The translations under genes and the position numbers were made by a program. From NCBI RefSeq assembly GCF_014201315.1, contig NZ_JACHDY010000002.1:248001-312000 (forward strand): DNA of 64,000 nt, given 5' to 3'. The notes under the pieces were generated by a model. It ran no database searches and was not told the DNA's origin. It saw only the letters and a list, made by a program, of their open reading frames with translations. The DNA comes from Edaphobacter lichenicola (GTDB lineage Bacteria > Acidobacteriota > Terriglobia > Terriglobales > Acidobacteriaceae). Positions 1,142 to 64,000 of this stretch are shown piece after piece (positions within the stretch are counted from its first letter, which is position 1; each line of letters begins with the position of its first letter).

Positions 1142-1217
1142 TGGTGGAGCTGAACGGGATCGAACCGTTGACCCCCTGCTTGCAAAGCAGGTGCTCTCCC
1201 AACTGAGCTACAGCCCC
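1142..1217 (-). tRNA. tRNA-Ala (anticodon TGC)
   Basis: A 76-nt cloverleaf with encoded CCA is read on the minus strand: acceptor GGGGCTG, D-arm AGCTCAGTTGGGAGAGC, anticodon loop CTTTGCAAG, and T-arm GGTTCGATCC. Its place between tRNA-Ile and 23S is the classic rRNA-spacer arrangement. Confidence 0.97.
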
Positions 1218-1270
1218 TTGTGATTTACACAAGTACGATGATCAGATTTACCTGACCGTCGGGATAAAGG

Positions 1271-1347
<77 letters not shown>

Positions 1348-47397: not shown

Positions 47398-47699
47398 GTA
47401 GTTCCTTTTTTGAAGCGTTCGTCGTAGCAAGTCGTCGCTCTTTCTATCTGCCGGTTCTGATGAGTTAGGGGATTCGCTCTCAAGAGCAATCTTTCTCAGG
47501 CGGGCAAGACCAATTCGATATAGAGCGACTCAATTCGTATCCTCCCTGTTCCCAACCATCCTGCATTGCGCTGGACCTGCTTCGTTGGCTCCAAGACACG
47601 CCACGAACGTCATGACCTCTGCCTCGTCGAGCCCCGAACCGTGTGTGCAACGAACGTGGGATAGCAGTATCGGCCTGAATATTCTTTACTTCAGTAAAT

Positions 47700-47711
47700 A
47701 GTTACTTTGGT
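47700..47711 (+). promoter_or_regulatory. Shared upstream box A (AGTTACTTTGGT)
   Basis: AGTTACTTTGGT ends 254 bp before the start codon. The same 12-mer is at 21431-21442 between the sigma-54 activator genes, and ATTACTTTGGT is at 53851-53861, 255 bp before the giant paralogue's start. Equal spacing in otherwise diverged DNA suggests a regulator site. Confidence 0.45.
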
Positions 47712-47844
47712 AATTAATCCTTAATCCCCAAGCTCTGCCTTTTTTGTGTCATTTGCGAACTCTTACTGCATGCAAACCTAGCTGGACATGCAGATGAGGG
47801 ACTTTGCCTCGCGATAGACGAAGTGGGCCCCGGTTTCCGTTAGA

Positions 47845-47864
47845 GGGTAACTGTAGTAACCATT
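47845..47864 (+). promoter_or_regulatory. Shared upstream box B (imperfect palindrome)
   Basis: GGGTAACTGTAGTAACCATT; its core GGTAACTGTAGTAACC matches its own reverse complement at 12 of 16 positions, as an operator would. It ends about 100 bp before the gene start. The near-identical GGGTAGCTGTAGTAACCACT lies at the same distance upstream of the giant paralogue (53995-54014). Confidence 0.5.
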
Positions 47865-47964
47865 TCCAAACAAAATATTCATCCGGATGTCCGGGCTCCG
47901 ATTTACTTTCGGCTCAGGCAGCGCGATTTGACTAACCAATTCCTCTTTTTTTACGGAGCATATT

Positions 47965-50373
47965 TTGCGAAAAGTATTCAGAACCCTCGTAACCATCCTC
48001 TCCCTCGCGCTCATCTTCTTCGGTCTGGATTGGACCTCCCCGTCACAGACAGCAAATGCCGCTACAGCGCTTGCCATCAGCACCACCTCGATCCCACAAG
48101 CCACCTATGAGAAGGCCTACACCACCACGCTCAAAGCGACGGGTGGCACGTTGCCTTATCACTGGAAGGTCGCCTCCGGCACTCATCCCCCAGGCTTCGC
48201 TCTTAATTCGGGCACGGGCCAGCTCTATGGCACGCCGACCAAGGACGGATCGTACCCGCTTACCTTTTCGGTTACAGATTCGTCAAAGTCGGCCCAGACA
48301 AAGACCGTAAAGCTTACAGTTGTCGTGGCGACCTCTAACTCCTCATCCGCGTCGCTCGCGATCACATCGGCGACCCTCGCCGCCGGCACCGATGGCGCAG
48401 CCTATGCCTCGCAGTTGAAGGCCAGCGGCGGCAAGCCCTCCTACACGTGGTCGATCACCTCCGGCAAACTGCCGGCCGGACTCACCCTCGCGGCCACCAC
48501 CGGCATGATCTCCGGCACGCCCTCGGCGACCGGCACCTCCACCTTCACCGCGACCGTCAAAGATAACAGCAACCCACAGGAGACCAAGTCCGCAAGCACC
48601 TCCATCGCCATTGCAGCGGAAGGAACGCAGACGGCTGGTCCGGGCACCACGTGGTACATCCGCCCGGATGGCGGCACCAACACCCAGTGCACGGGCAAGA
48701 AAAACGCGGCCTATCCCGGATCTGGCTCGGGTCAAGCGTGCGCCTTCAATCATCCCTACCAGATGCTGGATTCCTCGGGCAGCTGGGCCAGCTTCGCAGG
48801 CGGCGACACAATCCAATTTGTGAACACCAGCGGCAGGTCCGACACCTACTACATGGGCGAGCAGAATGGCGGCGTGGGAACAGACTGGCACAGCCAGCTC
48901 AGCGGCATCTGCCCTGCGCCGAATTCAGGGAACGGCGAAGGATCGCAGTGCATCCTACCCGCTCCTCCCTCGGGCACGTCCGGCCAGCACACCCGGATCC
49001 TGGGCCAGAACGCCGGCAACTGCCACGACTCCGGTCACACTCACCTGGTCAATCCGACCGTCCTGAGCGGTATCGATGCTGCCTTCGTAGTCCTCGATAC
49101 CCGCGGAACCGACTACGTGGACATCTCCTGCATCGAGATCACCCAGCCCGACACCTGCACCACAGTCGCCGGCGCAGGGCAGTGCGGCACCAACGCCAAC
49201 TACGTGCGCTATGGCGGACTCCTTCTCAACTACCTGACCGAACAAGGTCCCTCCAACCTCACCCTTAAGGATGTCGCCATCGTCGGCACCGCAGGCAGCG
49301 GTATCCTCGGAAGCAAGCTCAACAAATCCGGTAGCGATGTCTTCTCCGCCAGCGATGTCTACGTGATCGGCAACGGACAGGCAGGCTGGAACGGCGACGG
49401 AGGAGGGTGCAACACCTCCTGCGAGACCGTCGGAACCATGAATATCTCCTACGCGACGGTCGACTGGAATGGCTGCGTCGCCGTGAAGCCTTACGACATG
49501 ACCAAGCCTGATACGCAGAACAAATTCAACCACTGCTACGGGCAGGAGTCGGGTGGCTACGGCGACGGCTTCGTCCAGATCGCCGCCGGCAACATGACCA
49601 TGAACGTGGATCACAGCCACTTCCGCTGGAATACGCAGGACGGATTCGACTCACTTCACTTGAGTGACGACGTGAAGACCTCTCCGGCGATCCACATCTC
49701 CACCTCCTGGTCCGAGGGCAACGGCGGTCAAACCTTCAAGCTCGGCGCAGGAGCAGCCTCCTCTGCCATCAACAACGTCTCCATCAGCAACTGCCGGGTT
49801 CTGAGCAACGCCTCGGCCTTCCCGCTCAATCCCTCGGGCTGGGCTCTGGACAGCGCCGACACCTGCCGCGCCGCCGGCGATCAATGGGCCTTCCAGATGA
49901 ACAACGGCACCGTCATCACGCTCGAGAACAACACCTCGGTCGGCTACGGCAACACCATGTACGACGTCGAGTGTGCCGCGCAGGCTCCTAACTGCACGGC
50001 CAACGGCGCGAAGTTCATCTTCCGCAACAACATCAGCAAGGGCTATCCCGATCCTGGCAATAGCAACACGCTCGCCTCCGGCATCTACCTTGGCGTCGGA
50101 AATGTCTTCGCCAACTCTGGATCGGAGATCGATCACAATCTGTGGAACACCGTAGCCACAGGCTGCCCAGAGTCTTTTCTGGCTGGACAGGAAAAGATCT
50201 TCACCTGTGGCAATCCCGATCTGGTAGGTGAGTCCAACATCAACGCCATCAATCCCAATATCAGTTCCTCGAGTCCGGCCATCAACTCCGGTATCGCAAT
50301 CTCCGGAGTCACGACCGACTTCAACGGAAAGACCAGAGCCAACCCGCCAGCCATCGGCGCCATGGAACCATAA
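47965..50373 (+). CDS. Secreted protein with two Ig-like domains and a parallel beta-helix
   Basis: The protein is 802 residues from TTG 47965 (GGAG upstream). A signal peptide ends TANAA (about 33). Two putative-Ig (He_PIG-like) domains follow at about 34-125 and 129-222, each with a GG-x-PxxW and SGTP or YGTP signature. A cysteine-rich right-handed beta-helix region begins at TTWYIRPDGG (about 230) and runs to the end (AIGAMEP). The helix part has many Asn/Gly turns and no recognised lyase residues. It ends without an anchor, so it is probably secreted or held through the Ig part. The last 575 residues are close to 90% identical to the giant paralogue's, without indels. Confidence 0.8.
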   Translation: MRKVFRTLVTILSLALIFFGLDWTSPSQTANAATALAISTTSIPQATYEKAYTTTLKATGGTLPYHWKVASGTHPPGFALNSGTGQLYGTPTKDGSYPLTFSVTDSSKSAQTKTVKLTVVVATSNSSSASLAITSATLAAGTDGAAYASQLKASGGKPSYTWSITSGKLPAGLTLAATTGMISGTPSATGTSTFTATVKDNSNPQETKSASTSIAIAAEGTQTAGPGTTWYIRPDGGTNTQCTGKKNAAYPGSGSGQACAFNHPYQMLDSSGSWASFAGGDTIQFVNTSGRSDTYYMGEQNGGVGTDWHSQLSGICPAPNSGNGEGSQCILPAPPSGTSGQHTRILGQNAGNCHDSGHTHLVNPTVLSGIDAAFVVLDTRGTDYVDISCIEITQPDTCTTVAGAGQCGTNANYVRYGGLLLNYLTEQGPSNLTLKDVAIVGTAGSGILGSKLNKSGSDVFSASDVYVIGNGQAGWNGDGGGCNTSCETVGTMNISYATVDWNGCVAVKPYDMTKPDTQNKFNHCYGQESGGYGDGFVQIAAGNMTMNVDHSHFRWNTQDGFDSLHLSDDVKTSPAIHISTSWSEGNGGQTFKLGAGAASSAINNVSISNCRVLSNASAFPLNPSGWALDSADTCRAAGDQWAFQMNNGTVITLENNTSVGYGNTMYDVECAAQAPNCTANGAKFIFRNNISKGYPDPGNSNTLASGIYLGVGNVFANSGSEIDHNLWNTVATGCPESFLAGQEKIFTCGNPDLVGESNINAINPNISSSSPAINSGIAISGVTTDFNGKTRANPPAIGAMEP

Positions 50374-50430
50374 CAAAAACAACAAACAAACCCAGCCGGC
50401 CGCGTCACTCCACGCGGCCGGCTTTTTTTG
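48640..50430 (+). repeat. Long direct repeat, copy 1 (beta-helix half plus terminator)
   Basis: This stretch matches 58844-60636 over about 1.8 kb at a constant offset of 10204 bp within the coding part. It ends at a hairpin with the same stem. The direct orientation means homologous recombination between the copies could delete or duplicate about 10.2 kb. Boundaries are approximate. Confidence 0.85.
50394..50429 (+). terminator. Intrinsic terminator after the first beta-helix gene
   Basis: A 12-bp perfect stem (AGCCGGCCGCGT with ACGCGGCCGGCT, 50394-50405 and 50412-50423) has a 6-nt loop and ends in TTTTTT. The same stem sequence is found after the giant paralogue. Confidence 0.92.
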
Positions 50431-50527
50431 CGCTCCCTCCACTCTCTGCCGTCCGCCAACAACCTCCAATCACGAACGTCTATACTGGGCTCGCAAAACT
50501 CATAGAGTCCCTCGGAGACCGGAGCTT

Positions 50528-52315
50528 ATGAACGTTCGCATTTGTCTCAAGACGCTGTGCGTACTGATTGTCGGATGTGCATGCCTGCCGCTTTATGGAA
50601 CAACCTGGTATGTGCGACCTGATGGAGGGACTCGATACTCCTCCAACGTCTCTAACGGTCAATGCGATGGCAAAGCCGACGCCGCACCCTCTGGCGGAAA
50701 GTCGAATCAACACTGCGCGTTCAAGGACGTTCGTATGCTGTGGCAGGACGGCAGCTACTCCAATGGCACGAAATTTCCCAGCTGGGGGTGGGTCATCGGT
50801 GGAGGCGATACAGTCATCCTCCGTGGTTCGATCGGGACCGGCGTCTCTTATAGGATCGGGTGGGATCATCCCTCATACTCTTGTGAGAAGAACACGTGCT
50901 GGGGCCTGACGGGAGACGCATACTCCTCCGGAGTTCCTCCGCCACCTTCGGGCACTGCGGCGCAGCACACGCGTATCCTCGGCGAAAACTATGCCTCGTG
51001 CCGAAGCGCTTCGGCTAAGACACAGCTTCATGGTGGATGGGCAGTCTTTAACGTGCTTGATCTCTCCGGCACATCGTATGTCGATGTGGCTTGTCTGGAC
51101 ATCACAGACTTCTCCGCCTGCGGCAAAGCCGCGCAGAAGGTCGGCTGCGATTCCAGCCAGGACTTCGCGCAGAATGGAATTCGACTCACCAATAAAACGA
51201 CCAACCTCACCCTGACCGATCTTCGTCTTCACGGCCTGGCTGTTTCAGGAATCGCTGGCCCGACCGGAGACGGTGTGGTCATGGACTACGTCGATATCCT
51301 GGGCAATGCTAGTTCTGGCTGGAACGCCGACGACGGAACCACCGGCAAAGGCAGTCTGCTGGTGCAGCACTACGACATCAGCTGGAACGGTTGCGCCGAG
51401 GAGTATCCCATCGTGCATCCTCTGCCCTATGGAGACTGCACCGATCAGGACCATGGCGGATACGGGGACGGCTTCGGAACCACCACAAAAGATAGCGACC
51501 CTCCCGGCTGGCAAGCGCACTTCGATAAGGGAACCGCCAGCTACAACACCCAGGATGGATTGGACGCGCTCCATATCGGCGGAGCGGGATCCAGCATGAC
51601 CGTTACGGACAGCCTCGCCTTCAGCAACATGGGACAGCAGCTGAAAGTAGGTGGCGCGACTGCGACATTGATCGGCAACTACATCGTCGGGAACTGCGAC
51701 GCTATGTCCCACGAGATCCCAGGCACACCGCCTGGGTACAACGCCAAATTGAGCCAATTTTGCCGTGCAGGCGACACCGCTATCTTTATCGATATGCCGG
51801 TAGATCGGCCCGCGATCTTCCAACGCAATATTGTCTACTCGAACAACCACGTTGCTCTGGAGCTCGAGTATGTGGGAGATCCATCGCCCAGGGCCGCTAT
51901 CAAATATGACGACAACATCTTTGTCGGCTTCCCTAACTCGGAAGGAAACAACCCGTCGCCGATCTACAGCGAAACTGACCTGAAGATGTTGACCAATCCA
52001 GGAGCCAGCTTCACCAACAATGTCACTTACCATCCAAAGGGCGACTGGAGCTGTCCCGCCACCTCGCTGCATGAGACCGGAGGCAGCTGCAACAACCCGC
52101 ACCTGAAAGATGAAACCTGGCATCCGTATGGGTACGGGGATGTTTTACCTGTCAAAGCAGTGGACAAAAGTTCGTCGCGGCTTGCACCTGAACCTCACGC
52201 AACCTTGCATCCTTCCACCGTGATAGAGTCCCTCGGAGCAGCAGCGCTGGTGACGGGCGCATGGCAGGTATGGCGACACCTGCGTGACCGAAGTGACCGA
52301 GCAGCAAAGTCCTAA
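50528..52315 (+). CDS. Secreted beta-helix protein with a PEP-CTERM-like tail
   Basis: The protein is 595 residues from ATG 50528. The signal peptide (about 1-24) is followed directly by TTWYVRPDGGT, the start shared with the two beta-helix paralogues. The helix region (about 25-540) lacks Ig domains and is only distantly similar to theirs. The C-terminus has PEP at 554-556, a hydrophobic stretch (about 564-582, VIESLGAAALVTGAW) and a basic end (RHLRDRSDR). This order (PEP, membrane segment, Arg cluster) is that of exosortase substrates. The spacing after PEP is unusually polar, so a plain membrane anchor is the alternative. It overlaps the convergent GT2 gene by 4 bp. Confidence 0.75.
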   Translation: MNVRICLKTLCVLIVGCACLPLYGTTWYVRPDGGTRYSSNVSNGQCDGKADAAPSGGKSNQHCAFKDVRMLWQDGSYSNGTKFPSWGWVIGGGDTVILRGSIGTGVSYRIGWDHPSYSCEKNTCWGLTGDAYSSGVPPPPSGTAAQHTRILGENYASCRSASAKTQLHGGWAVFNVLDLSGTSYVDVACLDITDFSACGKAAQKVGCDSSQDFAQNGIRLTNKTTNLTLTDLRLHGLAVSGIAGPTGDGVVMDYVDILGNASSGWNADDGTTGKGSLLVQHYDISWNGCAEEYPIVHPLPYGDCTDQDHGGYGDGFGTTTKDSDPPGWQAHFDKGTASYNTQDGLDALHIGGAGSSMTVTDSLAFSNMGQQLKVGGATATLIGNYIVGNCDAMSHEIPGTPPGYNAKLSQFCRAGDTAIFIDMPVDRPAIFQRNIVYSNNHVALELEYVGDPSPRAAIKYDDNIFVGFPNSEGNNPSPIYSETDLKMLTNPGASFTNNVTYHPKGDWSCPATSLHETGGSCNNPHLKDETWHPYGYGDVLPVKAVDKSSSRLAPEPHATLHPSTVIESLGAAALVTGAWQVWRHLRDRSDRAAKS

Positions 52316-53214
52316 CTAGGCCTGGGGCCCCCGATCAGATTCAAGAACAGAGACCCTGCGGTTCTGGGATTGTCCATGTCAAACGGATAGAGCGCTACCG
52401 CGCGCAAGGAACTCCTCAGGGCTGCCCACGGCCGGTTATGCCGCTTCAAGGTCTCCGCTCGCTGCTTGTAAGCTCGTGCCAACGAGATCTGGCGCTCGCG
52501 CAATCCACAACCTTCCGCGCCATAGTGCTTGCGAATGAACGCTAGCTGCCCCCTAAGCATTCGCTCAGGATCGCTGGACATGGAGCCCGAAGACACCCGG
52601 TAGTAGGCAATGATCTCGGGGATGAACGCAACTTCATATCGAAAAGCGATCCGAAGGCAAAGATCGCGGTCCTCTGTCGTTCGCAGCGTCGTGTCAAAGA
52701 GCCCGACCTCGTCGATCGATCGTCTTCGGAACGTAAGGGTGGGACAGGGAAGCTCAACCTTGCGCATGTAAATCTGCGGAGCGATGCGACCTTCAGCGAA
52801 TTTTGAATTTCCCCGAAATGTCCCTCCGAGCCGACCCTCTGCGTCGATGATCGTGATAAGGCCATAAGCAAAACCAGCCTCCGGCCGCTCCGCAAGGGCC
52901 TTCACCGATTCGGACAGACGGCAAGGCAACCACACATCGTCGGCATCAAGCAAAGCTACGAACTCGCCTGCCGAGGCGCGAATAGCAGTGTTTCTCGCTC
53001 CTGGTAGTCCTTGATTTTCCTGTTTGATGTACTTCATCCTGGACCCAAGACGGAGGAGGAAGGGAGCAACCACTTCCTCAGTATTATCGGTACTGCCGTC
53101 GTCCACCAGCCAAATCTGCCAATCCTCGAACGTCTGCGACAGGACGCTCTCAATGGCCGCGGGCAGGTACCGAGCACCATTGAACGCGGGAATAATAACG
53201 TCGACCTTAGCCAT
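52312..53214 (-). CDS. Glycosyltransferase family 2
   Basis: This 300-residue GT-A protein carries VDVIIPAFNGARYLPAAIES, VDDGSTDNTEEVV, NQGLPGARNTAI, and DxD-type FVALLDADDVWLP. The catalytic region TLRTTEDRDLCLRIA is present. It resembles the GT2 at 40130-41098 closely in the N-domain (shared MKYIKQENQGL-like element), suggesting duplication. The substrate is unknown. It lies alone on the minus strand between surface-protein genes. Confidence 0.88.
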   Translation of the reverse strand: MAKVDVIIPAFNGARYLPAAIESVLSQTFEDWQIWLVDDGSTDNTEEVVAPFLLRLGSRMKYIKQENQGLPGARNTAIRASAGEFVALLDADDVWLPCRLSESVKALAERPEAGFAYGLITIIDAEGRLGGTFRGNSKFAEGRIAPQIYMRKVELPCPTLTFRRRSIDEVGLFDTTLRTTEDRDLCLRIAFRYEVAFIPEIIAYYRVSSGSMSSDPERMLRGQLAFIRKHYGAEGCGLRERQISLARAYKQRAETLKRHNRPWAALRSSLRAVALYPFDMDNPRTAGSLFLNLIGGPRPS

Positions 53215-53850
53215 CTTGCGTACTTTTTACACCTTTTGGGTCTTTGGAATCGTCTACGGACGAACACCGCGAACTATGAGAGATACTCCGGTTACAACTA
53301 AGTCTTCGTCACGATAGTCAGAGAAGTCTTTCAGTAGCCGCGACTGCTCCCCTTCATGTCAAGGTGTCGTTGGCTGTCGTGTGTCCCCGCGACCAGGTTG
53401 TCAACATGCGGCGCGATCTCTCGCTCTCCCGTTAATGTGTCTTTTGACTTATTGAGCAGCAGAATAGCACAGGAGACAATGCTGCTTGTGTGTGATGCGA
53501 TCCGTAGCAAAGGGAACTAGCGCATCTCCCGCACCACGACGAGCACTTCGCCACCTCCTCCTTCTCACTCCAGATTCCAGGCTAGGCGCAGAATTCTGCG
53601 ACAGGCTTGTGCGAGCTTGTTTCAATTCGCAAGCGTTGTGGAGTCCGCATGTCTCTCCAGAACGCTCGCGCGCTGTTTGCCGTAAGTCCTGGATTCTTCG
53701 TTGGTGTAAGTAACTTCACCAGTAACAAAACCATTCTTTCTTCCCTATCGAACGTGTCCGAAAAAGAGACATCTCCTGAAGCCGCTCTTACTCCTCGTAC
53801 TACTTCCGTGGTATGTCCCGGATGAAGTTGTAGTCCGATACTTGTCTCGG

Positions 53851-53861
53851 ATTACTTTGGT
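53851..53861 (+). promoter_or_regulatory. Shared upstream box A (ATTACTTTGGT)
   Basis: ATTACTTTGGT ends 255 bp before the start codon of the giant gene, the same distance as AGTTACTTTGGT from the smaller paralogue. Ten bases (TTACTTTGGT) are common to all three occurrences in the window. Confidence 0.4.
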
Positions 53862-53994
53862 TTTGTCTCTAACCAAATTAGAACCTCTGATTCGCCTGTC
53901 TCATTGTTCCTCTCTCTACAAAGGCGTTTTTGTGCCTATAACCGAGAGAATTTTGCCTTAATCACACGGAAGTTGCACTCCAGCATCCCCTATC

Positions 53995-54014
53995 GGGTAG
54001 CTGTAGTAACCACT
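53995..54014 (+). promoter_or_regulatory. Shared upstream box B
   Basis: GGGTAGCTGTAGTAACCACT differs from the box at 47845-47864 at two positions and lies about 101 bp before the start of the giant gene, as the other does for its gene. Confidence 0.5.
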
Positions 54015-54115
54015 TTCTCACTGTAGTTTTCAGTTGATGCGACGGCTTCGAGTAATTTTCCCAAACTCCAAGTCGTTCCAGTGTCGATAAGTCTTGATGT
54101 AACTAGAGGTGCGAT

Positions 54116-57100
54116 TTGGCGAAACTTTTTAGGGCTATTGCAGCAACCGCAGGCTTCGCGCTTCTTCACTTTTGTCTCGGCTGTGGCGCCGGACTGGTTC
54201 CGGTCAACATCACGCCCAGTATCAGCCAGGTTGTTCCCCAAACCATCGCCGCGGGTTCAAAGAACCAGACCATCAAGGTCTCGGGAACCAATTTCACGAG
54301 CGAGAGCGTCATCCTCTGGAATGGCAGCCCACTCTCAACGTCTGTCGTTGACTCGAATACTCTATCGAGCGCACTTGCAAGCAACATCGTCGCAACGCCC
54401 TCCACCGTGCAATTGCAGGTGCAGAACACTGTTACAAAAGCTTCTTCAACATCTGTACCGGTGGTAATCACGACGCCCGCGACCGGTGCGTCCGCTTCTA
54501 CGCTGACGCTGTCCACAACATCTTTACCCCAGCCAGCCCTCGGCGCTCTTTATAGTGTGGCGTTGACCGCAAACGGCGGAACTCCCGCATATATCTGGAG
54601 TGTTACAGCTGGGCAGTTGCCTTCTGGACTTAGCCTGTCCTCGACGGGAGTTATCTCCGGCGCACCCACTTCGAGCAGGAATTTTTCATTCACAATCACA
54701 GTGACTGACTCCAGTTCCCCAGCGCAAACGGCAGCAGTGCAATTCGGTTTGAATATACCTGCAGCGCCCCCCGTCTCCACGCCTCCCCCTCCGGTCACAA
54801 CGCCTCCGCCTCCAACCACACCCCCAGTTAGTCCCACGCCTCTGCAAATCACCCCTTCGCTTCCAGCCGGCGTAGTTGGTTCGATGTATTCAGGTTCACT
54901 CCAGGCAAGTGGAGGTACCGCGCCCTACGCCTGGTCCTCGAGCACGTTACCCGCTGGACTTAGCCTCGGAAGCAACGGCACTCTCTCCGGAGATCCAACT
55001 TCGAGCGGAAGCACTACTGTAACCTTTACAGTTGCAGACTCAAGCAGTCCAGCATTGACCACCTCAGTCGCCGCAACACTTGTGGTCGCTCCGCAGCCTC
55101 TAACAATCACCGTCGTCAGCCTGCCTGCCGGCCAGACCAACTCTCCCTATTCAGCGTCGTTGCAGGTAAGTGGAGGGACAGCGCCCTACACCTGGTCCGC
55201 CAGTGCACTACCCGTTGGACTCACTCTTACGAACAACGGCATCATCTCCGGAACGCCAACAGCTTCCGGCAACTTTCCAATCGTAGTCACGGTCGCCGAC
55301 GCCGGTTCACCAACCCTGACCACAAAAGCTGCGTTCACTCTATCGGTCAGCGCGACAATCCAGCCCCTTATCATTACCTCAACTTCCCTTGCGCCAGCCA
55401 CCTCCAGCAAACCTTATAGCGCCTCGCTCGACGCCTCTGGAGGCACAGCTCCCTACACTTGGTCCGCCGGCGCGCTCCCTGCTGGACTCACTCTCACCAG
55501 CAACGGAATCATCTCCGGAACCCCGACAACGACCGGCGCCTTCTCCATCACTGTCACGGTCACCGACGCAGGTTCACCCTCTCTCAGCGCCAAGACTTCG
55601 TTCAGTTTGTCAGTCGCCGCCACAATCCAGCCCCTTAACGTCACCTCCGCTACCCTGGCAGGCGCCACCTCCGACCAACCATATAGCGCCTCGCTCAACG
55701 CCTCCGGGGGAACAGCTCCCTACGCTTGGTCTGCCAGCGCTCTCCCTGCCGGACTCAGCCTTCAAAGCAACGGCATCCTCTCCGGAACCCCAACCCTGAC
55801 CGGCAGCTTCCCTGTCACCTTCACGGTCACCGACGCCGGTTCCCCCACCCAAACCGCGAAAGCAACGCTTAGTATCTCTGTCACCGCCGACATCCAACCC
55901 CTCACCATTACCTCCACTTCCGTTGCCCCAGCCACCTCCAACAAACCGTACAGCGCCTCGCTCGACGCCTCCGGAGGCACAGCCCCCTACACCTGGTCCG
56001 CCAGTGCTCTCCCTGCCGGACTCAGCCTTCGAAGCAACGGCATCCTCTCCGGAACCCCGACCACGACCGGCAGCTTCCCCATCACCTTCACCGTCACCGA
56101 CGCCGGTTCCCCCGCTCTGACCGCCAAGACTACGCTTAGTATCTCCGTCACCGCGGCCATTCAACCCCTTACGATTACCTCTACCGCCTTTGCGGGCGCG
56201 ACGGCCAACCAACCCTACAGCGTCTCACTCAACGCTTCCGGAGGAACAGCTCCCTACTCCTGGTCCGCCGCCGGGCTCCCTGCTGGGCTCTCACTCTCCA
56301 GCAACGGAATCATTGCAGGAACCCCGACCGCAACCGGCAGCTTCCCCATCACCTTCACCGTCACCGACGCCAGTGCACCCGCCGTGACCGCAAAAGCTAC
56401 GTTTGGTCTTTCGGTCACTGCGCCAATCCAGCCCCTCACGATTACCTCTACTGCAATCGCGAGTGCAACCTCCAACCAACCCTACACCGCATCCCTCAAC
56501 GCCTCCGGAGGGACCGCTCCCTACATCTGGTCCGCCGCAGGGCTCCCTGCCGGACTCTCTCTCGCCAGCAACGGAATCATTGCAGGAACCCCGACCGCAA
56601 CCGGCAGCTTCCCCATCACCTTCACCGTCACCGACGCCGGCTCCCCAACCCTGACCACGAAGGCAACCCTGACCCTCTCCATCGCTACAGCCATCCAGCC
56701 CCTTACGATTACCTCTACTGCGTTTGCGGGCGCCACCTCCAACCAACCCTACACCGCATCCCTCAACGCCTCCGGAGGAACAGCTCCCTACACCTGGTCC
56801 GCCGCTGGGCTCCCTGCCGGACTTTCTCTCGCCGGCAACGGAATCATCTCCGGAACCCCCACCGCGACCGGCAGCTTCCCCATCACCTTCACCGTCACAG
56901 ACGCTGGCTCCCCAGCCCTCACCGCAAAGGCCACCCTCACTCTCTCGGTCACGACACCCATCGCACCTCTCTCCATTACCTCCACCGCATTTGCAGGAGC
57001 CACCTCCAACCAGCCCTACGCCGCCACTCTCAGCGCCACCGGCGGAACCACTCCCTACACATGGTCCGTCACCGGCCTGCCCGCAGGTCTCACCCTCGGC

Positions 57101-60100
57101 AGCAACGGCGTCATCGCCGGAACTCCCACCGCCACCGGCAGCTTCCCCATAGCCATCACCGCCACCGACGCCGGATCACCAGCCCTCACCGCAAAGGCCA
57201 CCCTCACTCTCTCGGTCACGGCACCCATCGCGCCTCTCTCCATCACCTCCACCGCATTTGCAGGAGCAACCTCCAACCAGCCCTACACCGCCACACTCAG
57301 CGCCACCGGCGGAACTGCTCCCTACACCTGGTCCGTCACCGGCCTGCCCGCAGGTCTCACCCTCGGCAGCAACGGCGTCATCGCCGGAACCCCCACCGCC
57401 ACAGGAACCTTCTCCATCACCGTCACCGTCACCGATAGCCAGAGCCCAGCCAAGACCGCCTCCGCCACCATCCCACTCGCGGTCACCGCAGCCATCGCGC
57501 CGCTCTCCATCACCTCCACCGCATTTGCAGGAGCCACCTCCACCCAGCCCTATAGCACCACACTCAGCGCTACCGGCGGAACCGCTCCCTACACCTGGTC
57601 CGTCACCGGCCTGCCCGCAGGTCTCAGCCTCAGCAGCAACGGCGTCATCGCCGGAACCCCCACCGCCACTGGCAACTTCTCCATCAGCGTCACCGTCACC
57701 GATAGCCAGAGCCCAGCCAAGACCGCCTCCGCCACCATCCCACTCTCGGTCACCGCACCCATCGCGCCGCTCTCCATCACCTCAACCGCATTTGCAGGAG
57801 CAACCTCCAACCAGCCCTACAGCACCACACTCAGCGCCACCGGCGGAACTGCTCCCTACACCTGGTCCGTCACCGGCCTGCCTGCAGGTCTCACCCTCGG
57901 CAGCAACGGCGTCATCGCCGGAACCCCCACCGCCACAGGAACCTTCTCCATCACCGTCACCGTCACCGATAGCCAGAGCCCAGCCAAGACCGCCTCCGCC
58001 ACCATCCCACTCGCGGTCACCGCAGCCATCGCGCCGCTCTCCATCACCTCCACCGCATTTGCAGGAGCCACCTCCACCCAGCCCTATAGCACCACACTCA
58101 GCGCTACCGGCGGAACCGCTCCCTACACCTGGTCCGTCACCGGCCTGCCCGCAGGTCTCAGCCTCGGCAGCAACGGCGTCATCGCCGGAACCCCCACCGC
58201 CACTGGCAACTTCTCCATCAGCGTCACCGTCACCGATAGCCAGAGCCCAGCCAAGACCGCCTCCGCCACCATCCCACTCGCGGTCACGGCACCCATCGCG
58301 CCGCTCTCCATCACCTCCACAGCATTTGCAGGAGCCACCTCCAACCAGCCCTACAGCACCACACTCAGCGCCACCGGCGGAACTGCTCCCTACACCTGGT
58401 CCGTCACCGGCCTGCCTGCAGGTCTCAGCCTCGGCAGCAACGGCGTCATCGCCGGAACCCCCACCGCCACAGGAACCTTCAGCTTAACCACAACGGTTAC
58501 AGATAGTGAAAGCCCGACAAAGACTGCGTCGGCCACAATCTCACTGCTCGTTGCGGTTCCTCCGCTGACAATCACTTCCTCAACCCTTCCCTCAGGCACC
58601 GATGGAACAACCTATTCCGGCACTCTACAGGCAAGCGGAGGAACACCCGCCTACACGTGGTCGATCAGTGGCAGCCTGCCCAGCGGATTGACTCTCGCGG
58701 CTACCACCGGCGTGATCTCCGGTACACCCTCGGTAACCGGCACCACCAGCTTCACCGCAACCGTAAGCGACAACGGCAGTCCCGTCCAGAGTAAGTCAGT
58801 CACCGTCTCGATCACACTCAGTGCAGCACAGCCACCCCCTGGTCCGGGTACCACGTGGTACATCCGCCCGGATGGTGGCAGCAACACCCAGTGCACGGGC
58901 AAGACCAACGCGGCGTACCCCGGATCGGGCACGGGTCAAGCCTGTGCCTTCAATCACCCCTACCAGATGATGAACTCCTCCGGCAGCTGGGCCAAGTTTG
59001 CGGGCGGCGACACGATCCAATTTGTGAACACCAGCGGCACGTCCGACACCTACTACATGGGAGAACAGAATAGCGGCGTGGGAACGGACTGGCACGCGCA
59101 GCTCAGCGGAATCTGCCCTGCGCCGAATTCAGGTAACAGCGAAGGTTCCAGCTGCATCCTTCCTGCTCCTCCCTCGGGCACGGCCGGCCAGCACACCCGG
59201 ATTCTGGGCCAGAACGCCGGCAACTGCCACGACTCCGGTCACACTCACCTGGTCAATCCGACCATCCTGAGCGGTATCGATGCCGCCTTCGTGGTCCTCG
59301 ATACCCGCGGCACCGACTACGTGGACATCTCCTGCATCGAGATCACCCAGCCCGACACCTGCACCATGGTCGCTGGCGCAGGCCAGTGCACTGACTCCAA
59401 AAACTACGTGCGCTACGGCGGACTCCTTCTCAACTACCTGACCCAACAGGGTCCCTCCAACCTCACCCTGCAGGATCTCGCAATCGTCGGCACCGCAGGC
59501 AGCGGTATCCTCGGAAGCAAGCTCAACAAATCCAGCAGCGATGTCTTCTCCGCCACCGATGTCTATGTGATCGGCAACGGACAAGCTGGATGGAATGGCG
59601 ACGGCGGAGGATGCAACACCTCCTGCGAGACCGTGGGAACCATGAATATCTCCTATGCGACGATCGACTGGAATGGCTGCGTCGCCGTCAAGCCTTACGA
59701 CATGACCAAGCCCGATACGCAGAACGCCTTCAACTACTGCTACGGGCAGGAGTCGGGAGGCTACGGCGACGGCTTCGTCCAGATTGCCGCCGGCAACATG
59801 ACCATGAACGTGGATCACAGCCACTTCCGCTGGAATACGCAGGACGGATTCGACTCACTTCACTTGAGTGACGACGTGAAGACCTCCCCGGCGATCCATA
59901 TCTCCGACTCCTGGTCGGAGGGCAACGGCGGTCAAACCTTCAAGCTCGGAGCCGGGGCCGCTTCCACCGCCATCAACAACGTCTCCATCAGCAACTGCCG
60001 GATTCTGAGCAACGCCTCGGCTTTCCCGCTCAATCCCTCCGGCTGGGCTCTGGACAGCGCCGACACCTGCCGCGCCGCAGGCGATCAATGGGCCTTCCAG

Positions 60101-60577
60101 TTGAACAACGGCACCGCAATCACGCTCGAGAACAACACCTCGGTCGGCTACGGCAACACCATGTACGACATCGAGTGTGCGGCGCTGGCTCCTAACTGCG
60201 CGGCCAACGGCGCGACGTTTATCTTCAGAAATAACATCAGCAAAGGTTATGCCGATCCCGGCAATAGCAACACGCTTGCCTCCGGCATCTACCTTGGCAG
60301 CGGAAATGTCTTCGCCAACTCTGGATCCGCGATCGATCACAACCTGTGGAACACGATAGCCACAGGCTGCCCGGATAGTTATCTAAGTCAGCAGGAGAAG
60401 ATCTACACCTGCGGCGATCCCGATCTGACAGGTGAGTCCAACATCAACGCCATCAATCCCAACATTAGTTCCTCGAGTCCAGCCATCAACTCCGGTATCG
60501 CAGTCTCCGGAGTCACCACCGACTTCAACGGAAAGACCAGAGCCAACCCGCCAGCCATCGGCGCCATGGAACCATAA
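54116..60577 (+). CDS. Giant Ig-repeat beta-helix surface protein (2153 residues)
   Basis: The start is TTG 54116 behind AGAGG. The signal peptide ends in CLGCGAG, so C23 may be lipidated although the lipobox is not typical. An IPT/TIG-like domain follows (about 34-118). Sixteen putative-Ig domains come next (about 125-1575), with a Pro/Thr linker after the first. Thirteen of them (from 55100) form regular 87-89-residue units with SGGTAPYTWS and SNGVIAGTPTATG signatures. A Cys-rich beta-helix (about 1576-2153) closes the protein, about 90% identical to that of the 802-residue paralogue. It is probably a cell-surface adhesin or matrix protein: a stalk of Ig domains presents the helix. The domain order is unusual because the helix is at the tip. 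Its function is not demonstrated. Confidence 0.82.
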   Translation: MAKLFRAIAATAGFALLHFCLGCGAGLVPVNITPSISQVVPQTIAAGSKNQTIKVSGTNFTSESVILWNGSPLSTSVVDSNTLSSALASNIVATPSTVQLQVQNTVTKASSTSVPVVITTPATGASASTLTLSTTSLPQPALGALYSVALTANGGTPAYIWSVTAGQLPSGLSLSSTGVISGAPTSSRNFSFTITVTDSSSPAQTAAVQFGLNIPAAPPVSTPPPPVTTPPPPTTPPVSPTPLQITPSLPAGVVGSMYSGSLQASGGTAPYAWSSSTLPAGLSLGSNGTLSGDPTSSGSTTVTFTVADSSSPALTTSVAATLVVAPQPLTITVVSLPAGQTNSPYSASLQVSGGTAPYTWSASALPVGLTLTNNGIISGTPTASGNFPIVVTVADAGSPTLTTKAAFTLSVSATIQPLIITSTSLAPATSSKPYSASLDASGGTAPYTWSAGALPAGLTLTSNGIISGTPTTTGAFSITVTVTDAGSPSLSAKTSFSLSVAATIQPLNVTSATLAGATSDQPYSASLNASGGTAPYAWSASALPAGLSLQSNGILSGTPTLTGSFPVTFTVTDAGSPTQTAKATLSISVTADIQPLTITSTSVAPATSNKPYSASLDASGGTAPYTWSASALPAGLSLRSNGILSGTPTTTGSFPITFTVTDAGSPALTAKTTLSISVTAAIQPLTITSTAFAGATANQPYSVSLNASGGTAPYSWSAAGLPAGLSLSSNGIIAGTPTATGSFPITFTVTDASAPAVTAKATFGLSVTAPIQPLTITSTAIASATSNQPYTASLNASGGTAPYIWSAAGLPAGLSLASNGIIAGTPTATGSFPITFTVTDAGSPTLTTKATLTLSIATAIQPLTITSTAFAGATSNQPYTASLNASGGTAPYTWSAAGLPAGLSLAGNGIISGTPTATGSFPITFTVTDAGSPALTAKATLTLSVTTPIAPLSITSTAFAGATSNQPYAATLSATGGTTPYTWSVTGLPAGLTLGSNGVIAGTPTATGSFPIAITATDAGSPALTAKATLTLSVTAPIAPLSITSTAFAGATSNQPYTATLSATGGTAPYTWSVTGLPAGLTLGSNGVIAGTPTATGTFSITVTVTDSQSPAKTASATIPLAVTAAIAPLSITSTAFAGATSTQPYSTTLSATGGTAPYTWSVTGLPAGLSLSSNGVIAGTPTATGNFSISVTVTDSQSPAKTASATIPLSVTAPIAPLSITSTAFAGATSNQPYSTTLSATGGTAPYTWSVTGLPAGLTLGSNGVIAGTPTATGTFSITVTVTDSQSPAKTASATIPLAVTAAIAPLSITSTAFAGATSTQPYSTTLSATGGTAPYTWSVTGLPAGLSLGSNGVIAGTPTATGNFSISVTVTDSQSPAKTASATIPLAVTAPIAPLSITSTAFAGATSNQPYSTTLSATGGTAPYTWSVTGLPAGLSLGSNGVIAGTPTATGTFSLTTTVTDSESPTKTASATISLLVAVPPLTITSSTLPSGTDGTTYSGTLQASGGTPAYTWSISGSLPSGLTLAATTGVISGTPSVTGTTSFTATVSDNGSPVQSKSVTVSITLSAAQPPPGPGTTWYIRPDGGSNTQCTGKTNAAYPGSGTGQACAFNHPYQMMNSSGSWAKFAGGDTIQFVNTSGTSDTYYMGEQNSGVGTDWHAQLSGICPAPNSGNSEGSSCILPAPPSGTAGQHTRILGQNAGNCHDSGHTHLVNPTILSGIDAAFVVLDTRGTDYVDISCIEITQPDTCTMVAGAGQCTDSKNYVRYGGLLLNYLTQQGPSNLTLQDLAIVGTAGSGILGSKLNKSSSDVFSATDVYVIGNGQAGWNGDGGGCNTSCETVGTMNISYATIDWNGCVAVKPYDMTKPDTQNAFNYCYGQESGGYGDGFVQIAAGNMTMNVDHSHFRWNTQDGFDSLHLSDDVKTSPAIHISDSWSEGNGGQTFKLGAGAASTAINNVSISNCRILSNASAFPLNPSGWALDSADTCRAAGDQWAFQLNNGTAITLENNTSVGYGNTMYDIECAALAPNCAANGATFIFRNNISKGYADPGNSNTLASGIYLGSGNVFANSGSAIDHNLWNTIATGCPDSYLSQQEKIYTCGDPDLTGESNINAINPNISSSSPAINSGIAVSGVTTDFNGKTRANPPAIGAMEP
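55100..58564 (+). repeat. Tandem array of thirteen Ig-domain units (267-bp period)
   Basis: Units begin at 55100, 55367, 55634, 55901, 56168, 56435, 56702, 56969, 57236, 57503, 57770, 58037 and 58304. Twelve are exactly 267 bp; the last is 261 bp. Similarity rises along the array: the first units differ widely, those from 56969 are nearly uniform. Units 57236-57769 and 57770-58303 form a 534-bp higher-order pair differing at few bases. All length changes keep the frame. Confidence 0.95.
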
Positions 60578-60636
60578 ACAAAACAACAACCTGCAAACCC
60601 AGCCGGCCGCGTCACTCCACGCGGCCGGTCTTTCTT
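58844..60636 (+). repeat. Long direct repeat, copy 2
   Basis: Second copy of the repeat at 48640-50430, covering the beta-helix half of the giant gene and its terminator. The stem of the hairpin is kept, but the T-tract differs (TCTTTCTT instead of TTTTTT). Confidence 0.85.
60603..60636 (+). terminator. Intrinsic terminator after the giant gene, possibly bidirectional
   Basis: The stem CCGGCCGCGT/ACGCGGCCGG (60603-60612 and 60619-60628) has a 6-nt loop and is followed by TCTTTCTT. On the other strand the hairpin is followed by a T-rich stretch, so it may also end the convergent dehydrogenase transcript. Confidence 0.85.
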
Positions 60637-60708
60637 GCGCCCCTTAACCAGGTCATGGGCGATGTCCGAAAGAAAAGCCGCACGCAACCAGAAAGCGACG
60701 CCTTCACC

Positions 60709-62076
60709 CTAGCAACGAACGATCTTGTCCGACTTGATCCCCTTCGTCGCATTCCGCGAGTCCACCACCAGCTTCGACTTGTTCACAATGTCCTTGTAGT
60801 CGTAGTCCGTATGGTCCGTCATGATCAGAACGCAGTCGTACTGTCCCAGGTCATCGAGCGGCGTACAGGTCATATTCAGGTTGTAGTGCCGGCCTCTGCC
60901 CACGGTCGGGAAGTAAGGATCGTTGTACTGCACCTCAGCCCCCTGCTCCCGCAGCAATTCGATCACGGTCAGCGACGGCGACTCACGCAGGTCATCAATG
61001 TCCTTCTTGTAAGCCATCCCCAGCATCAGGATGCGCGCCCCGTTCACAGCTTTTTTATTCTGGTTCAGCCCCTTCGCGACGTACTGCACCACATGCGCAG
61101 GCATCGCCTCATTCACCTCGCCAGCCAGCTCGATGAAGCGCGTGTTGAAGTCGTACTCCTTCGCCTTCCAGCTCAGATAAAACGGATCGATCGGAATGCA
61201 ATGTCCACCCAGCCCCGGCCCCGGATAGAACGGATGAAACCCGAACGGCTTCGTCGCCGCAGCGTCGATCACCTCCCAGATATCCATCCCCATCTTCAGC
61301 GCCAGCACCTTCAACTCGTTGACCAGAGCAATATTCACGCAGCGATAGATGTTCTCGAGCAGCTTCGTCATCTCTGCTGCGCGCGTCGAAGACACCCTCA
61401 CCGAGCGCGTAAAGATACCCTCGTACATCACCGCCGCCAGCTCTGTGGCAATCTCTTCATGGCCGCCCACGACCTTCGGAATATCACGCCGCGCCACTGT
61501 CGTGTTGCCCGGATCTTCACGTTCCGGCGAGAACGCCACATAGAACACACCCTGCTCGGCCACGGCACCCTTACTCTGCACCTTCAGTCCATTGCGGTTC
61601 TCCGCCTCGAGGATCGGGATCATCAGATCCTCCGTAGTCCCCGGATACGTCGTGCTCTCGAGCACCACCAGTTGGCCCTCCTGCAGCCACGGAGCGGCAG
61701 CCTTCGCCGTATTCTCCACGTAGCTCAGGTCCGGCTCGCGATGTTCGGTCAGCGGCGTCGGCACGCACATAATGATGGCGTCCATATCGGAGAGCCCGGC
61801 AAAGTCCGCCGTAGCCTTGAATCCATGCGCCCGCGCGCTCTGAATCTCCTCAGCAGGAATCCGAAAGATATAAGACCGGCCCGCCTCGAGATCTGTAACC
61901 TTTTTAGTGTCAATATCAAATCCTGTCACCTTGAAACCCGCCTCCGACAGCAGCAGAGACAGCGGCAACCCGACATACCCGAGCCCGATCACTCCGATCT
62001 TCGCGGTACGGTTCTCCAGACGCGTCATGCGCTCCTGCGCAATCTTCGGCAAAACAACTTGGCTTTGTGTCAACAT
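60709..62076 (-). CDS. UDP-sugar 6-dehydrogenase (WbpA/WbpO-like)
   Basis: The protein is 455 residues from ATG 62076. The NAD fold is KIGVIGLGYVGLPLS (27-40). The central domain has CVPTPLTEHREPDLSYVENT and ESTTYPGTTED. The catalytic Cys is C293 in GPGLGGHCIPIDPFYLSWK. The C-domain carries MLGMAYKKDIDDLRESPSL. The enzyme oxidises a UDP-hexose(N-acetyl) at C6 to the uronate, feeding EPS. The pattern resembles the UDP-GlcNAc/GalNAc group more than UDP-glucose dehydrogenases. ATG 62028 with AGGAG is an alternative start. A longer reading adds 43 residues without family character. Confidence 0.9.
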   Translation of the reverse strand: MLTQSQVVLPKIAQERMTRLENRTAKIGVIGLGYVGLPLSLLLSEAGFKVTGFDIDTKKVTDLEAGRSYIFRIPAEEIQSARAHGFKATADFAGLSDMDAIIMCVPTPLTEHREPDLSYVENTAKAAAPWLQEGQLVVLESTTYPGTTEDLMIPILEAENRNGLKVQSKGAVAEQGVFYVAFSPEREDPGNTTVARRDIPKVVGGHEEIATELAAVMYEGIFTRSVRVSSTRAAEMTKLLENIYRCVNIALVNELKVLALKMGMDIWEVIDAAATKPFGFHPFYPGPGLGGHCIPIDPFYLSWKAKEYDFNTRFIELAGEVNEAMPAHVVQYVAKGLNQNKKAVNGARILMLGMAYKKDIDDLRESPSLTVIELLREQGAEVQYNDPYFPTVGRGRHYNLNMTCTPLDDLGQYDCVLIMTDHTDYDYKDIVNKSKLVVDSRNATKGIKSDKIVRC

Positions 62077-62464
62077 AGTCTCGATTATCGCATCCACCTT
62101 CCGCACTTCATCATTTTGAAACTCGATCAAAACATCGGAGTTCCAGTAAATTATTCGCCTTCTCAACCACGCTTCACACTTCGCACGCAAACCGCATGAA
62201 ACCATGCGGGCTGTATCCCCCAGAAAGCCCTAAGCCGTCCAATTATTTTTACTTCATCCTGCCGGCGATCGATCAGCCCTCTTCGGTCGTCCGGGTCGCA
62301 CGAAAGTCGCATTGACCTGCATCTTCCCGCTCCTCAAACTTAAATCACGCTGCCCTCTGCCAGCGGCACTAGCTTTCGTCCTGCAAACCCTGATAATAAG
62401 GGAGGCATCACGTCACTAAACATCTTTGCAACGCCCCAGCACGGTACGTCTGGGTGGAGGAATG
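62077..62464. other. Divergent intergenic region between nucleotide-sugar genes
   Basis: About 390 bases between the dehydrogenase (minus) and the epimerase (plus). No gene, RNA or repeat was recognised. A GGAGG ribosome site ends it at the plus-strand gene. Confidence 0.5.
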
Positions 62465-63436
62465 ATGGCCCGTTATCTCATCACCGGAATCGCAGGCTTC
62501 ATCGGCTCATCCCTGGCCCACACTCTCGTCGAGCAGGGACACGACGTACGCGGCATCGACAACCTCTCCACCGGCAACCTCGACAACCTCGCCGACATCC
62601 GCCACGCCATCGACTTTCATGAGATGGACCTCCAGGATGCCACCGGCATGAAGTCCGCCTGCGACGGCATCGACTACATCCTCCATCAGGGTGCCCTCGC
62701 CTCGGTCCCGCGCTCGGTCAAAGATCCCCTTACCTCGCACGAATCCAACATCAACGGCACGCTGAACCTGCTCATCGCAGCGCGTGACGCCAAGGTTCGC
62801 CGCATCGTCTACGCGGCCTCCTCCTCGGCCTACGGCGACCAGCCCACCCAGCCCAAGCAGGAAGACATGCTCCCCCGCCCGCTCTCGCCCTACGCCGTCC
62901 AGAAGCTCACCTGCGAGTACTACCTCCAGTCCTTCTACCGAGCCTACGGCCTCGAAGGCGTCTGCCTGCGCTACTTCAACATCTTCGGCCCCCGCCAGGC
63001 CGCCGACTCGCCCTACTCCGGCGTCATCGCCCAGTTCACCTTCAAGATGATGGAGGGCACCGCCCCTACCATCTTCGGCGACGGCCTCACCAGCCGCGAC
63101 TTCAACTACGTCGACAACGCCGTCAGCGCCAACCTCCTCGCCTGCCTCGCGCCCAGCGAAGTAGCCACCGGCCGCGTCTTCAACATCGGCACCGGCAAGA
63201 GCCACACCCTCAACGAGGTCTACGCCACCATCGCTGGCCAGCTCGGCTTCACCGCCCAGCCGATCTACGGCCCCCCAAGAGCAGGCGACATCCAGCACTC
63301 CCTGGCCGACATCACCCGCGCCAGCACCGAGCTGGGCTATCTACCCAAAGCCCACTTCCACGAAGGCCTCAAGAAGACCGTCGCCTGGTACCTCGAAGAG
63401 AAGCAGAAAAAGGAAGTCACAGCTCTCAAAGCCTGA
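62465..63436 (+). CDS. NAD-dependent UDP-N-acetylglucosamine 4-epimerase-like (WbpP-like)
   Basis: This 323-residue extended short-chain dehydrogenase has nucleotide motif TGIAGFIGSS (7-16). The catalytic set is YAASSSAYGD and SPYAVQK (Tyr-x3-Lys). The pattern HQGALASVPRSVKDPLTSHE closely resembles WbpP, which interconverts UDP-GlcNAc and UDP-GalNAc. Together with the divergent dehydrogenase it would give UDP-GalNAcA-type sugars (inference). ATG 62465 is behind GGAGG at a good distance; the preceding ATG 62462 is too close. Confidence 0.9.
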   Translation: MARYLITGIAGFIGSSLAHTLVEQGHDVRGIDNLSTGNLDNLADIRHAIDFHEMDLQDATGMKSACDGIDYILHQGALASVPRSVKDPLTSHESNINGTLNLLIAARDAKVRRIVYAASSSAYGDQPTQPKQEDMLPRPLSPYAVQKLTCEYYLQSFYRAYGLEGVCLRYFNIFGPRQAADSPYSGVIAQFTFKMMEGTAPTIFGDGLTSRDFNYVDNAVSANLLACLAPSEVATGRVFNIGTGKSHTLNEVYATIAGQLGFTAQPIYGPPRAGDIQHSLADITRASTELGYLPKAHFHEGLKKTVAWYLEEKQKKEVTALKA

Positions 63437-63456
63437 CTTGCTCAAGGCCTGACTTG
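63425..63456 (+). repeat. 16-mer tandem duplication at a stop codon
   Basis: CTCAAAGCCTGACTTG (63425-63440) and CTCAAGGCCTGACTTG (63441-63456) differ at one base. The stop codon of the epimerase gene (63434-63436) lies within the first copy. Confidence 0.85.
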
Positions 63457-63566
63457 AAAAACGAACGAACACGAAGAGGCCGCCGGCAAACCAGGCGGCC
63501 CCTCACCATGACGTTCTCTCCTCTCACCAGGGGCTGCTCCGCAACCTCCGATGAGATCCACTCAAA

Positions 63567-64000
63567 CTACGCGCGCATCCGACGCAACAATGCACCCGCA
63601 GAACCAATCAGGCCCGTTCCCAGAAGCAGCAGCGAACTCGGCTCCGGAACCGGTGAGACCTCACCGGAAAAATCGACGCCGTAGTCCGCACCATTAGCCT
63701 GGAGAACTTGAAACGTCAACGTATTGACTCCGCTGACAAAATCGTTCGAGTTGAGCGACACCCGCGTAGGATCGCCGATACAGGTTGGTATACCGTTCGA
63801 GCAATGCGGATACGAGTCTCCCGTCGGCGTGATCTCCAGGTTCCCATTCAGAAATACCGCAACCGTATCGTCCGCGTAGATATTCAGGTAGCCGCTCGCG
63901 CCGCTAGGATTCTTGGTGTCAAGGGTGAACGTGCTGGTGAAGAAGTAGTTGGCATTTGGCGTCGCGACAAACGGACTCGACTGTGGTCCCGTCTGGGCCC
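63567..64000 (-). CDS. PEP-CTERM sorting-signal protein, C-terminal part (5' end beyond window)
   Basis: The frame stays open to the window edge, so about 143 C-terminal residues are visible. The visible part is a beta-rich domain (NYFFTSTFTLD, GYLNIYADDTVAVFLNG, with two Cys in HCSNGIPTC). A typical PEP-CTERM tail closes it: SPVPEPSSLLLLGTGLIG, then SAGALLRRMRA, i.e. VPEP, a hydrophobic stretch and an Arg-rich end. It is an expected substrate of the exosortase encoded at 30297. It converges with the epimerase gene. The function of the beta domain is unknown. Confidence 0.92.
   Translation of the reverse strand, partial: AQTGPQSSPFVATPNANYFFTSTFTLDTKNPSGASGYLNIYADDTVAVFLNGNLEITPTGDSYPHCSNGIPTCIGDPTRVSLNSNDFVSGVNTLTFQVLQANGADYGVDFSGEVSPVPEPSSLLLLGTGLIGSAGALLRRMRA

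Follow-up and report, generated by a model that had tools for sequence, protein, structure and literature searches.

A putative lipid-anchored He_PIG stalk with a turning-over interior and a PL9-like beta-helix tip at an apparent exopolysaccharide locus of an Edaphobacter relative

Periscope Proteins are single chains whose tandem repeats exceed 50 amino acids and share at least 80% identity, with a unit number that varies among close strains (PMC8201768, PMC9704523). Gram-positive cases typically place an adhesin at the N-terminus and a wall anchor at the C-terminus, while Gram-negative inverse autotransporters carry a C-terminal effector but are held by a beta-barrel anchor (PMC9704523). In the portions of these accounts drawn on here, the length variation discussed is mainly that of adhesins from bacteria associated with humans, and it is partly linked to immune pressure (PMC8201768, PMC9704523). 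This report describes a giant gene encoding a He_PIG repeat stalk and a beta-helix tip, found in a 64,000-nucleotide stretch of DNA (the window; bases 248001-312000 of contig 2 in a 4.88 Mb genome of 15 contigs) from an organism that homologues and related loci place as a relative of Edaphobacter/Tunturiibacter. The gene resembles the Periscope Proteins SasG, Sgo_0707/SHIRT, Rib, Esp and CdrA in its tandem repeats and varying unit number, and is unlike them in being acidobacterial, in its N-terminal lipobox-like anchor and C-terminal lyase-like tip, and in having a second gene with the same tip.

The tip shares with PL9 lyases (Pel9A, 1ru4, and a Bacteroides rhamnogalacturonan lyase, 5olq) the beta-helix and the spacing of D-x23-[D/Q]D-x2-D and FKLG, yet differs from them in a Gln that stands for one calcium Asp, in its length (578 amino acids against 400 in the 1ru4 chain) and in its 18 Cys. 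The closest solved relatives of the He_PIG units by sequence are the cadherin-like domains of the SraP stem of S. aureus, which are also near the top by fold; SraP has few modules, against 16 in the giant protein, and a lectin-type binding region. RbmB, a matrix lyase of biofilm polysaccharide, is 10% identical to the tip over 310 aligned residues, and its solved chain of 348 residues is without a long stalk, unlike the giant protein. In the library searched, no paper connected Acidobacteria with He_PIG or with a "putative Ig domain", or Acidobacteriota with exosortase and PEP-CTERM, and for Ig-like tandem-repeat surface proteins in Acidobacteria a single isopeptide-bond survey was listed.

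The best supported reading, at about even odds, is that the tip is lyase-like and acts on the cell's own exopolysaccharide (EPS). The wider proposal of a lipid-anchored, Periscope-like He_PIG stalk that presents a PL9-like EPS lyase and has a secreted partner is one that we judge as evenly balanced, activity and location being predicted from sequence. Under this proposal the signal and its lipobox-like Cys would provide an N-terminal lipid anchor for a presumably rod-shaped stalk, which would hold the C-terminal PL9-related beta-helix out into the cell's own EPS, where the tip would most likely cut or trim a uronate-containing polymer, and the short gene would supply the same tip untethered. 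Recombination between near-identical units of the interior block may shift stalk length by whole 267-base-pair (bp) units, and repeated gene conversion could liken giant and short tips, giving tethered and free forms of one specificity. A more specific version is tentative, with the odds somewhat against it: a length-tunable lipoprotein arm in which the recombining Ig stalk would set the depth of the lyase-like tip in the capsule, with a secreted copy, and in which gene conversion would pull the two tips towards a single specificity and both would be exchanged jointly for another tip type in relatives (G014, G065). Periscope-type length variation appears here in relatives of soil Acidobacteria, with a polysaccharide-lyase-like tip at an apparent own EPS locus, so the length of the stalk may determine the place in the slime at which an enzyme works. 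The paired tethered and free copies, together with culturable relatives of differing stalk length, make the proposal directly testable.

The giant gene (54116..60577, forward strand) is a single open frame of 2153 amino acids with a TTG start, supported by Pfam matches and by relatives that keep its N-terminus. The protein consists, in order, of a hydrophobic signal ending in CLGCGAG, 16 He_PIG domains and the 578-amino-acid tip. The signal (54116..54184, forward strand) contains a lipobox-like CLGC whose Cys23 (codon 54182-54184) would be the lipidated residue, and [LIFV]GCG recurs in all 15 giant N-termini read, a set that includes near-duplicate species and one tipless array gene. A database version of the protein (P0121) begins 207 residues late and thereby omits both signal and lipobox, along with most of domain 1. 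Pfam recognizes He_PIG (PF05345) in 16 stretches with 626.6 bits against a cut-off of 24, and Tandem Repeats Finder reports a period of 267 with 12.3 copies over 55172-58467. The initial annotation had described thirteen units of almost exactly 267 bp in one gene; the array and its period are real, and twelve consecutive units (3-14) each measure exactly 267 bp (89 amino acids), but the total comes to 16 He_PIG stretches.

Units were cut on a GGTxPYxW-type motif, and all lie on the forward strand. Unit 1 (54500..54835), delimited by repeat analysis and this cutting, is a diverged He_PIG domain with a Pro-rich linker. It is followed by the older units 2-10 (54836..57232), the homogenised block of units 11-14 (57233..58300), the diverged unit 15 (58301..58561) and unit 16 (58562..58825), the last He_PIG domain. 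Unit 2 and unit 15 are each 261 bp (87 amino acids) and unit 16 is 264 bp (88 amino acids). In a structure model of three units the domains are confident, with a pTM of 0.58. Antisense and shifted-frame open reading frames within the array are taken as by-products of the repeat.

Nucleotide identity between neighbours is 48-59% at the 5′ end and climbs, not evenly, to reach 94-95% in units 11-14, the successive values for units 2-14 being 59, 68, 76, 84, 77, 82, 87, 82, 86, 94, 94 and 95%, which bears out the drift that had been proposed for the 5′-side units. All pairs within units 11-14 are 94-99% identical in nucleotides and 90-98% in amino acids, so that these 89-residue units lie above the Periscope repeat threshold as it is stated in PMC8201768. 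The block holds the previously reported 534-bp two-unit duplication, 57236..57769 against 57770..58303 (both forward strand), the copies of which differ at 7 of 534 positions; pairs 11/13 (98%) and 12/14 (99%) are closer than 11/12 (94%), as expected from a two-unit tandem duplication. Third codon positions are alike at 90-99% in units 11-14, and at only 48-60% when these are compared with units 4-9, which argues for homogenisation of the DNA beyond protein constraint and rules out constraint at the protein level alone as the cause of the likeness. The units nearest the tip, which had been described as near-identical, prove to be diverged, unit 15 matching units 11-14 at 84-86% and unit 16 at about 60% of nucleotides, and the presence of both next to the tip makes the young block interior.

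When the order of units 3-15 was shuffled 5000 times, the effect of distance between units was matched 0 times, that of position 57 times and the adjacent trend towards the 3′ side 20 times. The corresponding counts were 0, 72 and 11 in strain M8UP22, and 2, 541 and 198 in a third array (G014), where the trend is weaker. The identity matrix is uneven, and equal divergence of all units was not seen. Among 70 arrays of at least six units, kinship being ignored, 40 have their most similar neighbours in the last half, 18 in the first half and 12 at the centre, and a strictly 3′-terminal polarity is therefore rejected; the polarity in the window is as expected for an interior-recombining array that is here skewed to the 3′ side. 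What had been proposed as expansion or gene conversion at the 3′ side thus stands as turnover of units, but the block that turns over is interior and does not abut the tip.

Related loci, ranked by amino acid identity of the tip, belong to Edaphobacter lichenicola M8US30 (94%), X5P2 (82%) and M8UP22 (82%), labelled G025, G002 and G063 beside the window genome G000, and homologous proteins carry the names Tunturibacter empetritectus and T. psychrotolerans. According to the part of PMC11447935 used here, the genus name has been corrected to Tunturiibacter, and the basonym of its type species is E. lichenicola; strains of this type serve as tundra-soil Acidobacteriota in the corresponding part of PMC11924767. 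Units 1-10 of the window pair one-to-one with those of M8US30 at 86-97% nucleotide identity (last unit 94%), and units 1-8 with those of M8UP22 at 84-91% (last unit 84%), whereas units 11-14 match units 11-15 of M8UP22 at 87-91%, below the 94-99% found within the window genome. Both ends of the array are thus old and stable, while the zone between them turns over genome by genome. The one-to-one 5′ units also rule out that the entire giant gene was duplicated recently and separately in every genome. Orthologous units have ratios of nonsynonymous to synonymous divergence (dN/dS) of 0.21 and 0.15 and are under purifying selection. The sequences give good support to a stalk whose units turn over and whose N-terminus bears a lipobox-like motif.

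The suggestion that stalk length may vary between strains is supported by one pair of strains that share a species name and whose proteins are exactly 267 amino acids apart in length. G063 (M8UP22) has 16 units and G064 (protein P0157, named T. empetritectus; main contig 4.898 Mb) has 19; in the set that was searched each of the two represents a species of its own, yet their proteins bear one species name. Their identity is 98.5% in the opening 3.4 kb of the frame and 99.1% in a stretch of 4.9 kb that starts where the array ends and extends past the tip, and, a broken tip in G064 aside, the proteins are separated by a single 267-residue gap (three units) inside the homogenised block. Units 1-12 of both correspond, and units 14-16 of G063 pair with units 17-19 of G064. 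Only 2 of 267 positions separate units 12 and 15 of G064, and the 186-bp exact repeat that they share at lag 801 would readily allow the gain or loss of three units. The 206 tip-matching proteins listed, which come from two length-limited searches and give no rate, have from 0 to 19 units.

Near-identical units and length differences could also be artefacts of assembly, which we consider very improbable. Runs of 94-103 undetermined bases (N) interrupt the arrays of M8US30, X5P2 and G029, whose unit numbers are for this reason set aside as length evidence, and collapse of units 13-15 of G064 would yield the unit number of G063, which could itself be such a collapse, a point that weighs against the preferred reading. 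Units 13-14 of G063 are 5-7 nucleotides from the nearest G064 units, however, so a plain collapse is probably not the whole story, and arrays of 12, 13 and 19 units occur in genomes of one to three contigs (G068, G066 and G064). The window array has a 282-bp exact repeat at lag 534, through which a short-read assembly could miscount by multiples of two units, but the window as a whole contains no N and the 534-bp copies are told apart by their 7 differing sites. The array, its interior block and the three-unit difference between the two assemblies are features of the sequences themselves.

The tip (58841..60574, forward strand) is confidently predicted to be a right-handed beta-helix, the fold of PL9, and its nearest folds are mostly enzymes. 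A core motif is common to the tip and the PL9 pectate-lyase core, D-x23-[D/Q]D-x2-D followed at matching spacing by FKLG; the initial annotation had passed over this polysaccharide-lyase-like core. By motif and alignment comparison with PL9 it comprises D1885, Q1909, D1910, D1913, H1916 and K1943 (59768..59944, forward strand). Equivalents of the PL9 residues Asp209, Asp237 and Lys273 are kept and that of Asp233 is Gln, and the acid cluster and the Lys are conserved in 52-53 of 53 aligned tips. As far as its sequence and predicted fold indicate, the tip adds a beta-helix family that Pfam lacks and that probably has an active site.

Several observations weigh against a lyase. Gln replaces one PL9 calcium Asp in all 53 aligned tips, and activity may be changed or lost as a result. 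AlgE, RbmB, tailspikes and GH136 are about as good a match to the fold as PL9 is, and fold alone cannot decide among them. With the tip as query, a PDB sequence search found nothing at E 1 or E 10, and Pfam gave no family at E 10 with HMMER filters on. Support from profiles is moderate and varies with how the alignment is formed: removal of insert columns lowered the probability to 6%, at a score of 31.0, compared with 23.4 for the best among 40 column-shuffled controls and 16.7 for the reversed control. Of 71 tip frames, distant ones included and twice-fetched loci excluded, 61 contain the [D/Q/E]DGxD core; 35 show the first loose pattern, 43 the Lys pattern and 21 both. The giant tip of G064 is frameshifted, with its remainder in another frame; unless a read error is the cause, this would be unexpected in an enzyme of importance. 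PF22842 had no match in the window genome at E 0.001, which leaves the tip outside PL9 by that profile, and its matches elsewhere, in 6 of 61 genomes, were all short and partial, the one that was read being set aside. A usable PL9 relative was found in 1 of 396 genomes. In a profile comparison with a single PL9 relative only the N-terminal end aligned.

These points leave room for a Periscope-like adhesin, in which the tip would bind EPS or another surface without cutting and the stalk would set its reach, as in the matrix adhesin CdrA. The likeness of units 11-14 and the difference of 16 against 19 units fit such a protein, as does the Gln at one calcium position, and CdrA is named among Periscope Proteins as an exopolysaccharide-binding protein in the part of PMC9704523 used here. 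The near-invariant acid cluster and Lys nevertheless exceed the apparent needs of pure binding and the nearest folds are mostly enzymatic, and we regard an adhesin as rather unlikely. It is more doubtful still that the tip is another beta-helix enzyme (an epimerase, glycosidase or tailspike-like depolymerase) that alters EPS in a different way, as the residue spacing and FKLG match PL9, although a residue-level comparison was made for PL9 alone.

The lyase-like reading also involves the other tip genes of the locus, which had gone unnoticed: a second gene with 92% and a third with 36% amino acid identity to the giant tip. The short partner gene (47965..50373, forward strand; 802 amino acids), identified by its frame, Pfam and comparison, encodes He_PIG units and the same tip behind a secretion-type signal that ends in SPSQTANAATA without a lipobox. 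The tract common to the giant and short genes runs from the start of unit 16 to about 66 bp beyond the stop. The middle gene (50228..52315, forward strand; possible start 50528) has the diverged tip and a hydrophobic C-terminal stretch, and contains its own NTQDGLDALH and QQLKVG motifs.

In a tip tree that excludes the frameshifted G064 giant tip, eight genomes hold both giant and short tips. Giant tips group with the short tip of their own genome, at support 98-100, in G002, G063, G068 and G066, that of G063 grouping with the short tips of G063 and G064, and in these four of eight genomes the two tips evolve in concert. A constraint separating all giants from all shorts is rejected by the approximately unbiased test (1.5e-44), which spans distant tip types too. 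Against gene conversion as a general rule, the giant and short tips of the other four (G000, G025, G014 and G065), the window genome included, are unpaired, short pairing with short at support 100, as the window short tip does with that of M8US30. Between the window and M8US30, synonymous divergence (dS) is 0.10-0.17 in neighbour genes, 0.156 in short tips and 0.351 in giant tips, and it is 0.241 between the giant and short tips of the window genome; the giant tip is the more diverged in all three comparisons made. Tree and dS together point to homogenisation of giant and short tips in some lineages and not recently in the window genome. In G014, G065 and G066 both genes bear a different tip type (32-38% amino acid identity), among neighbours of which the family 4 glycosyltransferase (GT4)-type genes are 74-87%, the dehydrogenase (partly read) 91-99% and the adjacent family 2 glycosyltransferase (GT2) only 55-57% identical. 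For G014 and G065 alone the figures are 32-37% for the tips, 86-87% for the two GT4-type neighbours and 55% for the adjacent GT2.

The surroundings are those of an apparent EPS locus. Upstream genes match an EPS export protein, a chain-length determinant, an XrtA-associated ATPase, a tyrosine kinase, an EpsI/exosortase-like protein and glycosyltransferases, several under their curated cut-offs, and a profile match identifies the GT2 at 52312..53214 (reverse strand). Directly downstream of the giant gene lie a nucleotide-sugar dehydrogenase (60709..62205, reverse strand; TIGR03026, 402.8 bits against a cut-off of 189.8) and a nucleotide-sugar epimerase-like gene (62426..63436, forward strand; best match TviC, 280.4 bits, under the cut-off of 760), a pairing that, from their families, could supply uronate-type sugars. 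At least one of six window EPS genes (deacetylase-like, two GT4-type, GT2, dehydrogenase and epimerase; at least 50% amino acid identity) lies within the stretch covered around a tip gene in 27 of the 29 genomes that were read, the window genome included and G074 and G075 excluded. The other two are G022 and G007, of which one of two tip loci was read. None of the six accompanies the extra tip loci L070, L073, L077, L081 and L086, which belong to some of the same genomes.

The architecture, thought uncommon in the initial annotation, is not rare in its own group: of 62 genomes from the genus, 31 contain tip relatives, as do 22 of 299 in a class-wide draw (16 of the 22 within the genus), and 70 of the 206 tip proteins listed have at least six units. 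In L069, L073, L078, L097 and L100 large proteins carry the tip towards the N-terminus, with a different C-terminal part containing GATD, which indicates that the tip is reused in other architectures. A further frame of 2070 amino acids elsewhere on the window contig (L084; G000:C2, bases 601000-612000) has two He_PIG domains and no tip match.

NCBIfam matches of the giant protein at E 0.01 include no PEP-CTERM family, and choice-of-anchor Q is sub-threshold at 18.2 bits against 25. At the window edge (63567-63998, reverse strand) a protein fragment ends in VPEPSSLLLLGTGLIG, which we take to be a PEP-CTERM-like signal. A search of 47000-64000 against Rfam at gathering thresholds gave no match. 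At the other end of the window (1142-1347, reverse strand) a tRNA-Ala adjoins a tRNA-Ile, an arrangement common in the spacer of ribosomal RNA operons.

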